Below, in pieces: positions 33,463 to 51,016 of a stretch of DNA of 59,893 nucleotides. The position numbers and the translations under genes are program-made. How positions within the stretch are numbered: the stretch's first letter is position 1; every line of letters begins with the position of its first letter. The notes beneath the pieces are model-generated. The model did no database searches. It was not told where the DNA came from and saw nothing but the letters and a program-made list of their open reading frames with translations. Source of the DNA: Candidatus Woesearchaeota archaeon (GTDB lineage Archaea; Nanobdellota; Nanobdellia; Woesearchaeales; UBA583); the NCBI GenBank assembly GCA_027858315.1, contig JAQICV010000075.1:1-59893 (forward strand), written 5' to 3'.

Positions 33463-33606
33463 TCCAAGCACCCGGACTTGAACCGGGAACCTGTCGGTTT
33501 CTGCATTGTTTGGCAAATCGCGACTGTCTTTAGTATCATCCTAGTTCTAAAAGAACCAGTCAAAAAGATTTTACAGCCGACCACTCTACCATTGAGCTAT
33601 GCTTGG
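33463..33606 (-). tRNA. tRNA-Tyr (anticodon GTA) with 72-base intron
   Basis: Mature exons 33571-33606 and 33463-33498 total 72 bases. Acceptor CCAAGCA/TGCTTGG, anticodon stem GTCGG/CCGAC and loop CTGTAAA with GTA. The intron (about 33499-33570) sits after position 37. TGTA of the anticodon loop can pair with TGCA near the intron's 3' end, with 3-base bulges AAA and GAA on each side, which fits a bulge-helix-bulge substrate of the archaeal splicing endonuclease. Intron ends are exact to about one base. Confidence 0.9.
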
Positions 33607-46137: not shown

Positions 46138-46680
46138 TTATTCCCAAAAAAATTTTGGTAAAGAGCCAAGATTAAAACTCCAAACAGTAGGATCCCATGA
46201 AATCATAGGTTCATTAGAATTTCCATAAAAATAAGAAATTTCATTTTGTCTAGCACTAACTGTTTGTCCATTTTGTTCTAAGCCTACAGCTAAGTTAGGA
46301 TTTCCAGATACATTATTATAATATGAATTAGTAATAACTCCCATAAAATTATTGCCAATAAATCCTCCCAACTCTAAACCTACTCCAGAAACATTACTAA
46401 TTGAATAAGAATTCTCTATATCTCCAAATAAATACCCTACTAAACCTCCAACTTTATCATTTCCTGAAATAGTAGAAATAGAATAAGAATTAGCAATATA
46501 TCCTCCATTAGAATTTAAAAGTCCAACTAATCCTCCAACACTATCTCCAGTAGAAATTACTTCTCCTTTAAAATAAGAATTATTAATCATACTACCGGAA
46601 AATCCAACACTAAAACTCAAATTGAATTGAATAATTAACAAAAAAACAAAAATCCATGAAATCTTAAATAAATTTTTCAT
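46138..46680 (-). CDS. secreted GLUG-repeat protein
   Basis: A 180-residue exported protein. The start chosen is ATG at 46678-46680, because GGAGGTG lies 8 bases before it and the next residues form a good signal peptide (MKNLFKISWIFVFLLIIQF, cut near FS-VG); a longer frame would add six unlikely residues. Then come four GLUG-type repeats (DSVGGLVG, DKVGGLVGYLFGDIENSYS, LELGGFIG). The tail ends SWDPTVWSFNLGSLPKFFWE, as GLUG proteins often end. It looks like the continuation of the repeats of the preceding gene, separated from them by the new signal peptide. One base separates the two genes. Confidence 0.72.
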   Translation of the reverse strand: MKNLFKISWIFVFLLIIQFNLSFSVGFSGSMINNSYFKGEVISTGDSVGGLVGLLNSNGGYIANSYSISTISGNDKVGGLVGYLFGDIENSYSISNVSGVGLELGGFIGNNFMGVITNSYYNNVSGNPNLAVGLEQNGQTVSARQNEISYFYGNSNEPMISWDPTVWSFNLGSLPKFFWE

Positions 46681-46681
46681 T

Positions 46682-47584
46682 TTAATTAACACCTCCAATT
46701 AAACCACCAACATAATCATTACCTTGAACAACTCCAGACACAACTATTAAATCTATAGTTGAAGCAAAATCATACCCAATTAAAGCACCAACAAAATCTT
46801 TGCCAGTAATATTAACATTATTTAAATAAAGATTAAATATATAACCATTTTCACCTACTCCAAATAATCCAACATTATCTTCTAAGGATCTATCAATAAA
46901 TAAATCCATTATAGATTTATAATTTCCATCTAAACTCCCTTTAAAGTGTACCCCTATATTCCCTAAAGGATCAAATCCTAATCCAGCATTCCAATTAATT
47001 GTGTCAGAACAATCAATATTTTGAATAAGTGAAAAATTCCCCAATAAAACTGAAGAAGACTGTCCAATCAATTGTAACTGAGAACAATTACATATCTTCC
47101 ACGGATTCCCTAAACTTCCATCTCCTTCTTGAAAACCTTCAGGAGTTGTTGCATTACAAACTAAAACAACACTTCCACTTAAACTAACATCTTCAACATA
47201 TATAGTTTCTCGAACAATTTTATCTTCCATCATAATGACAACATCAGGAGTAGAACTACTAACTCCACCACTTAAACAAGAACTTAAACTTAAATTAGAA
47301 ATCCCTGAATCTAAACTAATATTAGTATAACAAACTTCACCATCAACAATAACTTTAGAAACTATTAAATTATCATAATTACTATTTTTCACATATAATT
47401 GATCACCAATTATTGCTTCAACTCCAACTGCACCAAAATCATTGCTTCCACTTTGTTCCAGATTATTAAACATCTCACTAGAATAACTACTATACCAATT
47501 TTGAAACCCAACAACTGCAACAACACTTACAACTAAAAGTAATGCTATAGCAACAACTAGAGATATTGCTTTCTTAAAATTCAT
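46682..47584 (-). CDS. pilin-module surface protein P2 with GLUG repeats
   Basis: A 300-residue protein. Short pilin signal MNFKKA then ISLVVAIALLLVVSVVAVV, FQNWYSSYSSEMF, and the shared module with Cys85-x17-Cys103. A second part from about 148 starts CNATTPEGFQEGDGSLGNPW and leads into GLUG repeats (DNVGLFGVG, DFVGALIGYDFAS, DYVGGLIGGVN). The array ends abruptly at the stop, while the next gene goes on with the same repeats. Position 9-10 has Leu instead of the usual Pro in ISPVV. Confidence 0.75.
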   Translation of the reverse strand: MNFKKAISLVVAIALLLVVSVVAVVGFQNWYSSYSSEMFNNLEQSGSNDFGAVGVEAIIGDQLYVKNSNYDNLIVSKVIVDGEVCYTNISLDSGISNLSLSSCLSGGVSSSTPDVVIMMEDKIVRETIYVEDVSLSGSVVLVCNATTPEGFQEGDGSLGNPWKICNCSQLQLIGQSSSVLLGNFSLIQNIDCSDTINWNAGLGFDPLGNIGVHFKGSLDGNYKSIMDLFIDRSLEDNVGLFGVGENGYIFNLYLNNVNITGKDFVGALIGYDFASTIDLIVVSGVVQGNDYVGGLIGGVN

Positions 47585-49126: not shown

Positions 49127-50020
49127 TCAAGGAGTACAAACTGACCCCTGTCCCAAAAAATCTGGTTGAGCTAAAACCCAAGAAGTAGTAGAAGTATTAA
49201 ATGAACTACATTCATTTACTTGATCTACATCCCAAGAACTCAAATCACTATTAAAACTAATTGCATCATAAAATAAAGTATCCATATCTAAAACAGAACT
49301 AACATTCCAAGAACTCAAATCACTTGTAAAATTACTTGCTCCCAAAAACATTCCTTCCATTGTTGTAACTTTCCCAGTATCCCAAGAACTCAAATCACTA
49401 TTAAAACTATTTGCACCTTTAAACATAACATACATAGTAGTAACTTTTCCAGTATCCCAAGAACTCAAATCACTTGTGAAATTAGTTGTATCTCTAAACA
49501 TCGAGTACATATATACTGCATTACTAGTATTCCAACCACTTAAGTCTTGATTGAAGTTATGGCATCCATCAAACATATACCCTAAAGCAGAAGAAGAACT
49601 TACATCCCATAAACTTAAATCTTGATTGAAATCAAGTGCTCCATCAAACATCTGAAAAAAATCTCCAACATTACTAACATTCCAATTACTAATATCTCCA
49701 TTAAAATGAGCTGAACCTCTAAACATAGATTCCATATCATTAACTTTTGAAACATTCCAAGAATTTAAATCCTGATTAAAAGTAGGATTAGCATCAAACA
49801 TATAATCCATATTTGTTACATTACTAACATCCCAAGAATTTATATCTTGATTAAAATTTGAATGAGCAAACATCTGTTTCATAGTTGTAACTTTTCCTGT
49901 TTCCCAAGAACTTATATCTCCATTAAAAGAAGAATAATCAAACATATAATACATATATTCAACATTAAAAACATCCCAAGAACTTAGACTTCCATAATAA
50001 CCATTTGCAGTAGAAAACAT
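49127..50020 (-). CDS. BspA-like repeat protein, downstream part of interrupted P3
   Basis: A 297-residue stretch made of about ten 25-residue units of the type VSNVTNMDYMFDANPTFNQD (BspA/DUF285-like repeats) and a C-terminal SFNTSTTSWVLAQPDFLGQG ending. It has no signal peptide and no pilin module. It is in the same frame as the upstream gene; only the TAA at 50024-50026 and one codon separate them, in the middle of a repeat unit. It is therefore the second half of one 629-codon gene. Independent translation from the ATG at 50018-50020 is possible but there is no ribosome binding site. Confidence 0.7.
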   Translation of the reverse strand: MFSTANGYYGSLSSWDVFNVEYMYYMFDYSSFNGDISSWETGKVTTMKQMFAHSNFNQDINSWDVSNVTNMDYMFDANPTFNQDLNSWNVSKVNDMESMFRGSAHFNGDISNWNVSNVGDFFQMFDGALDFNQDLSLWDVSSSSALGYMFDGCHNFNQDLSGWNTSNAVYMYSMFRDTTNFTSDLSSWDTGKVTTMYVMFKGANSFNSDLSSWDTGKVTTMEGMFLGASNFTSDLSSWNVSSVLDMDTLFYDAISFNSDLSSWDVDQVNECSSFNTSTTSWVLAQPDFLGQGSVCTP

Positions 50021-50023
50021 ATT

Positions 50024-51016
50024 TTACATATTAACAACTGAGCTAACATCCCAAATAGATAAATCACAATTAAAAGAATCAGTATCATGAAACATACTAA
50101 CCATACTAGTAACTGAACTTACATCCCAATTACTTATATCTCCAATAAAATGACTATCATAAGAAAACATATAATCCATATCAGTAATTCCAGATAAATT
50201 AGGTCCATCTAAAGAACTAAGACTTTCTAAATTATTGCAATTTGAAAATTGTTCTCCTCCATCAGATAATTTTAAAGAACTCCATTGATTAATAGAAATT
50301 AATTTATCACCATCATCATTATTATCTTCCCAAGCATTCCCAGCATTAAAAGCAAAACCATCAACTTGTCCTGTTAAATTAACTTGATATTCCCCACCAA
50401 TAGCATAAGTATGATTGATTTCAGGTTGATTATAAGAAGTAATTGAATCATTAGTTCCATCTCCCCAATAAACTATGAAATCATAAGTACCATCACTTTG
50501 TAAAGGAAGAGTCAAATTGTTAAATCCTGAAACTCCAACATCAATACTAACATTCCAAATACTAATAAATGTATTAGTAACAATCGGCAAATTATCACTC
50601 ACAGAAATTAAACTAGAATCATCTAGATAAACAGTTTCTCTAATAATCATATCCTCAGTAATTATTACAACATCAGGAGTATTTCTAATTCCACTAACAT
50701 TTAAACAATCACTCAAACTAAAATTAGAAATTCCTGAACCTAAACTAATATTTTCATAACAAACTTCTCCATCAACAGTAATTTGAGCAATAGATAAATT
50801 TTCTAAATTAGTATTTTTAATATAAAGTTGGTCATCAATTACTCCTTCAACTCCTACATTACCAAAATCAGTACTTCCACTTTGTTCCATATCACTAAAC
50901 ATCTCAGAAGAATAACTTTGATACCAAGAATTAAAACCAACAACAGAAATAACTGCAACAACCAATAACAAAGCTATTGCAACAACTGGACTAATAGCAG
51001 ATTTATTCAAATTCAT
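50024..51016 (-). CDS. pilin-module surface protein P3 with BspA-like repeats, upstream part
   Basis: A 330-residue protein. Pilin-type signal MNLNKSA-ISPVVAIALLLVVAVISVV, FNSWYQSYSSEMF, then the shared module with Cys86-x17-Cys104. Next is a PKD/BspA N-terminal-like domain (TLPLQSDGTYDFIVYWGDGTNDSI; NHTYAIGGEYQVNLTG) and two to three BspA-like units ending VSSVVNM just before a TAA. The same reading frame continues beyond the stop with NMFSTANG, which completes the repeat unit. Interpreted as a gene with an in-frame stop codon. Confidence 0.78.
   Translation of the reverse strand: MNLNKSAISPVVAIALLLVVAVISVVGFNSWYQSYSSEMFSDMEQSGSTDFGNVGVEGVIDDQLYIKNTNLENLSIAQITVDGEVCYENISLGSGISNFSLSDCLNVSGIRNTPDVVIITEDMIIRETVYLDDSSLISVSDNLPIVTNTFISIWNVSIDVGVSGFNNLTLPLQSDGTYDFIVYWGDGTNDSITSYNQPEINHTYAIGGEYQVNLTGQVDGFAFNAGNAWEDNNDDGDKLISINQWSSLKLSDGGEQFSNCNNLESLSSLDGPNLSGITDMDYMFSYDSHFIGDISNWDVSSVTSMVSMFHDTDSFNCDLSIWDVSSVVNM

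Follow-up and report, generated by a model that had tools for sequence, protein, structure and literature searches.

What does a TAA codon mean when it stands within an otherwise open frame for a repeat-bearing surface protein in a member of the Candidatus Woesearchaeota? The window, which is the whole 59,893-nucleotide stretch of DNA analysed here, is contig C75 of a 1.77-Mb MAG of 105 contigs that is 95% complete with 4.2% contamination and that has the split rpoA and rpoB genes that mark archaea. A sequence-only reading had noticed the interrupted frame, here termed P3, and offered four meanings: an inactivating mutation, programmed readthrough, an on/off switch of the display protein, or an assembly error. 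The results presented here favor the first of these, with a probability of roughly 0.7, in the form of a recent single-base nonsense mutation that inactivated or truncated P3 within an expanded surface family that turns over quickly.

The interrupted P3 frame

The P3 frame comprises 630 codons including the internal TAA (Table 1). It starts with MNLNKSAISPVVAIALLLVV at an ATG (51014-51016), ends with GSVCTP, and has as its natural terminator a TGA ending at 49127 on the minus strand. The TAA is codon 331 (X331) and the sole internal stop. The sequence-only reading held that this TAA splits P3 inside a repeat, at a site where a variable residue is expected, and the present analysis confirms both points. 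The frame contains 13 M-x-x-MF motifs at a spacing of 24-25 codons (period 25 residues, twice 24), the periodicity runs on both sides of the TAA, and the TAA occupies the first x of the motif in repeat 3 of 13. The 298 codons after the TAA are open, whereas shuffling their bases 20,000 times gave 0 open stretches. Of the stops flanked on both sides by coding signal in a dicodon scan of 355 kb of the genome, this TAA took the top rank. The residues that match the stop position in the other repeats are D, V, Y, K, D, E, F, G, Y, Y, E and D. Origin of the TAA from a Tyr codon by one base change, as had been suggested, is possible, but the repeats do not point to Tyr in particular as the residue that was replaced: D, V, K, E, F and G also occur there in other repeats.

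Table 1. Positions of P3, its parts and its neighbor in the window
Feature	Position	Strand	Remarks
P3 read-through frame	49127..51016	-	pilin-like head, WGDG (PKD-like) region and 13 DUF285/PARCEL repeats
In-frame TAA	50024..50026	-	codon 331 of P3
P3a, upstream ORF	50024..51016	-	330 aa; archaellin/pilin-like N-terminus, middle domain, 2 complete DUF285 repeats and part of a third
P3b, downstream ORF	49127..50020	-	297 aa; remaining DUF285 repeats
Archaellin/pilin-like head of P3	50612..51016	-	70 matches in 5 of 6 genus genomes
Intact gene adjoining P3	51125..53065	-	

The downstream ORF opens with an ATG at 50018-50020, 3 nt past the TAA. This ATG is inevitable because the repeat has a conserved Met at that site, and an ATG within 6 nt of the stop is also found in 46 of 257 control genes. 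Neither a signal peptide nor a Shine-Dalgarno sequence was seen at the P3b start, and on these grounds, together with the identity of its ATG as the repeat Met, P3b was rejected as a separate gene. Elsewhere in the window (46138-47584, minus strand), a pilin-headed GLUG gene ends with GGLIGGVN-TAA, and a second ORF then starts at A-ATG in a different frame. The second ORF has a Shine-Dalgarno-like GGAGGTG upstream, a signal-peptide-like start (MKNLFKISWIFVFLLIIQFNLSFS) and more GLUG repeats after it. This pair consists of two genes where a single repeat array might be expected, and differs from P3a/P3b.

The intact gene that adjoins P3 presumably encodes a protein of the amylo-glucosidase/debranching type. 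In another genome (G005) its homologue is adjoined by a gene that also has a pilin-like head but whose tail differs and has no Pfam match. The genus genomes are 34-50% identical in the protein neighboring P3, which is too distant for a same-species comparison, and a contig scan made for that comparison returned a single unrelated Flavobacteria bin. The window also holds an intron-containing tRNA of 144 nt (33463-33606, minus strand), apparently with anticodon GUA (Tyr), which was missed by ARAGORN and found with Rfam RF00005.

Architecture of P3

P3 scored 406 bits against Pfam DUF285 (PF03382; cut-off 25) and 152.3 bits against the NCBIfam PARCEL repeats (TIGR02167; cut-off 30), and its tandem repeats have a period of 25, in agreement with the ~25 residues by which the PARCEL/DUF285 family is defined. 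The earlier naming of the repeats as BspA-like was correct. The head, which is the first ~130 residues of P3, has an N-terminus of the KKAISPVVAIALLLVV type, and the profile of its family (A1) matches the solved chain 8fk7_A (Flagellin) with an E of 5.7e-7 over the first ~60 residues. None of the Pfam pilin families reached E 1e-3 against the heads. The tails behind pilin-like heads vary (DUF285, GLUG, LVIVD, FG-GAP and laminin-G), and frames of ~110-170 residues that consist of the head alone are numerous in the family. An AF2 model of read-through P3, weak with a mean pLDDT of 55, has an N-terminal helix at residues 10-34 and a strand-rich repeat region, with the stop within strand 329-335 of the solenoid. 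The intact product of P3 is predicted to have been exported and to have displayed a DUF285/PARCEL beta-solenoid on an N-terminal helix like that of archaellins and type IV pilins.

Like the PARCEL/DUF285/BspA-like proteins (PF03382, TIGR02167; Roske et al. 2010, PMC2996958), P3 has 25-residue tandem repeats and is membrane-targeted, multi-copy and sporadic. Unlike those proteins, it comes from an archaeon and its repeats follow a head of archaellin/pilin type; Roske et al. detected no PARCEL repeats in the archaeal genomes of 2010 (PMC2996958). DUF285 repeats are found in 8 of 118 genomes of the order. Arrays in other genomes of the order lie in open frames of 4108 codons (G018:C1) and 3552 codons (G108:C18). 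The dyad symmetry described for PARCEL repeats (PMC2996958) is a feature of their coding DNA, not of the protein family, and was not seen in P3, whose gene has 0 inverted pairs of >=24 nt, the length range scanned. P3 resembles archaellins and archaeal type IV pilins in its N-terminus and in the match of its head profile to a flagellin chain, whereas heads of the P3 type carry large variable display tails. Proteins of the P3 type may assemble into filaments. Searches of the literature for DUF285, BspA or pseudogenes of surface proteins in DPANN or Woesearchaeota returned no reports.

Sister genes in the same genome

Five pilin-headed DUF285 genes of the MAG were examined, P3 included, and four of them carry nonsense codons. 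The sister on C19 has one TAA and is otherwise open to its natural end, the sister on C57 has three nonsense codons (TAG, TAG and TAA), and that at C16:4298-5705 has a TAA plus a frameshift. A sister pilin with a non-DUF285 tail, on C38, has one TAA. The sister at C16:5851-7434 is intact; its frame and those of homologues in three other genomes (G003, G004 and G005) are open, in contrast to the TAA at codon 331 in P3. By-eye comparison placed the C19 stop where sister genes have Tyr, the C57 stops at two Gln-like positions and one linker, and the C38 stop near a Phe position. Truncation points across the interrupted genes range from codon 41 to codon 331, and the sites, stop types and replaced residues differ. 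In total, the interrupted pilin-headed genes (on C75, C19, C57, C38 and C16) hold 7 nonsense codons versus 1 clear frameshift, an excess that, in this small sample, is greater than expected from simple neutral decay.

Among 149 DUF285 stretches from 8 genomes of the order, a stop is present in two, both in the genome of P3, and one gene of the pilin-headed family in genome G002 is interrupted by TGA. At C103:18890-20500, a head-only pilin ORF is followed by an unrelated membrane-protein frame and then by a DUF285 stretch that begins with the end of a head; this is apparently a pilin-headed gene split by an inserted gene. Among the loci compared, no ready donor for gene conversion of P3 was found, because the best sister is 70% identical in DNA and the longest exact match is ~30 nt. 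The P3 stop lies at no slippable tract, the substitution being in a non-repetitive codon. Slippage and gene conversion were both rejected, given the lack of a tract and of a near-identical donor in the loci examined.

Control genes, terminators and tRNAs

The scan used for the family was also applied to 257 control genes, with the foreign-looking contig C30 excluded. Five interruptions were found in ~5,010 family codons versus one in 81,574 control codons (Fisher p 4e-6), a p value that is approximate: candidates were judged by eye, neighboring genes in the same direction and frames on the antisense strand were dropped, and the limits of the family were drawn manually. The sole control interruption is in a gene for an MscS-like channel (C10 11078, plus strand), where an in-frame TGA is followed soon after by an apparent frameshift.

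TAA is the terminator of 194 of the 257 control genes, and rpoB', rpoA', rpoA'', S12 and S7 all terminate in TAA. The sequence-only reading had proposed a search for other in-frame TAA codons in genes of this genome. Such codons are present in the sister pilin-headed genes and in none of the conserved genes among ~81,600 control codons. Among the tRNA matches of the 95%-complete genome, none has the anticodon UUA or otherwise reads TAA or TAG. Terminator usage, the tRNAs found and the control genes led to rejection of TAA recoding. A structured readthrough signal at the P3 stop was rejected as well, since a fold of 121 nt of local RNA is no better than shuffles (z 0.18). No stop site conserved among the sister genes was found; the sites are non-homologous.

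A tRNA with anticodon UCA (C3:11163-11234), of ordinary length and with a Gly-like 5' end, would read TGA, not TAA. Contig C30 (1-20000) carries a 4186-codon frame with 233 in-frame TGA codons and a Walker-A-like motif that fits TGA = Gly (code 25). The contig looks like that of a phage of a Gracilibacteria/Absconditabacteria-type host, and thus like contamination of the MAG, and the UCA tRNA on C3 may be part of this foreign element with code 25.

Discussion

An inactivating mutation is the best supported of the four meanings. Since the sisters are broken at other places by other stop codons, an ordinary loss-of-function mutation is most likely, and other genes are almost free of interruptions. 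We infer that the cell itself carries the mutation, that the change arose recently and that it cost the gene its function. A single-base change would have created the TAA at codon 331, and translation would terminate after two and a half repeats, with the loss of 10 of the 13 repeats and part of the third repeat. Restart at the ATG 3 nt downstream may be possible, with a product that would lack the export head. Several members of the expanded surface-protein family would, on this account, be undergoing independent loss.

In the downstream half of P3, a single substitution would produce a stop in approximately 4.4% of cases. The absence of a second nonsense codon from that half suggests that, if decay is neutral, divergence since inactivation is below ~8%, or ~2% if indels make up 10% of changes. 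The same absence could equally reflect a sequence error or a selected frame. It also could count against nonsense inactivation that the MAG consensus is the sole source of the base, that nonsense codons exceed frameshifts across the family, and that a truncated head-bearing protein could be made and used.

An error of consensus or assembly, or a base from a minority strain in the MAG, is an unlikely origin of the TAA. The MAG is fragmented and contaminated, with at least one foreign-looking contig, and lesions that are rich in nonsense codons and poor in indels would fit short-read substitution errors. However, random errors should strike all genes, yet the controls are almost uninterrupted, and the assembly has no second copy of the P3 locus at high identity. 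It is quite unlikely that the truncation is tolerated, in which case P3a would still function as a pilin-like subunit, its display part shortened, and loss of the tail would be neutral or useful. The head of P3 is intact and head-only members are common in the family, but the sisters are truncated at unrelated points, which indicates that no truncated form is preserved, and the P3 stop falls inside a solenoid strand of the low-confidence AF2 model.

The excess of nonsense codons over frameshifts is the basis of another, very unlikely reading, in which the nonsense codons are not simple decay. Frames would be kept open via low-level bypass of stops, or recurrent loss and regain of tails by point mutation would vary the surface. 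It is highly improbable that the display protein is switched on and off reversibly. PARCEL-repeat surface families can vary in Mycoplasma, and a poly-G tract has been proposed for two M. agalactiae PARCEL-repeat genes (PMC2996958), but the change in P3 is a substitution rather than a change in tract length, no ready donor was found among the sister loci compared, and its gene has no long inverted repeat. Least probable is that programmed readthrough, or reading of TAA as an amino acid, yields the full protein: the frame continues perfectly, as it does in several stop-bearing sisters, but TAA and TAG stand at non-homologous sites where different residues are replaced, and both mechanisms are unlikely because most genes normally terminate in TAA, the tRNAs found include none that reads TAA, and the local RNA is unstructured.

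P3 alone is an ordinary broken gene and a further case of a known phenomenon, the nonsense-broken gene of a surface family. Like other nonsense pseudogenes in expanded surface families, it belongs to a multi-copy, fast-changing family in which one member has a premature stop and a sister copy is intact; unlike them, it is from an uncultured archaeon and is known from one genome, and the lesions here are mostly nonsense. The excess of nonsense codons over frameshifts would matter only if the downstream halves prove to be made as protein. What emerges is an uncultured archaeon in which point nonsense mutations are removing members of a large surface-display family. Its archaellin-like heads bear DUF285/PARCEL repeats, which the 2010 survey did not find in archaea.
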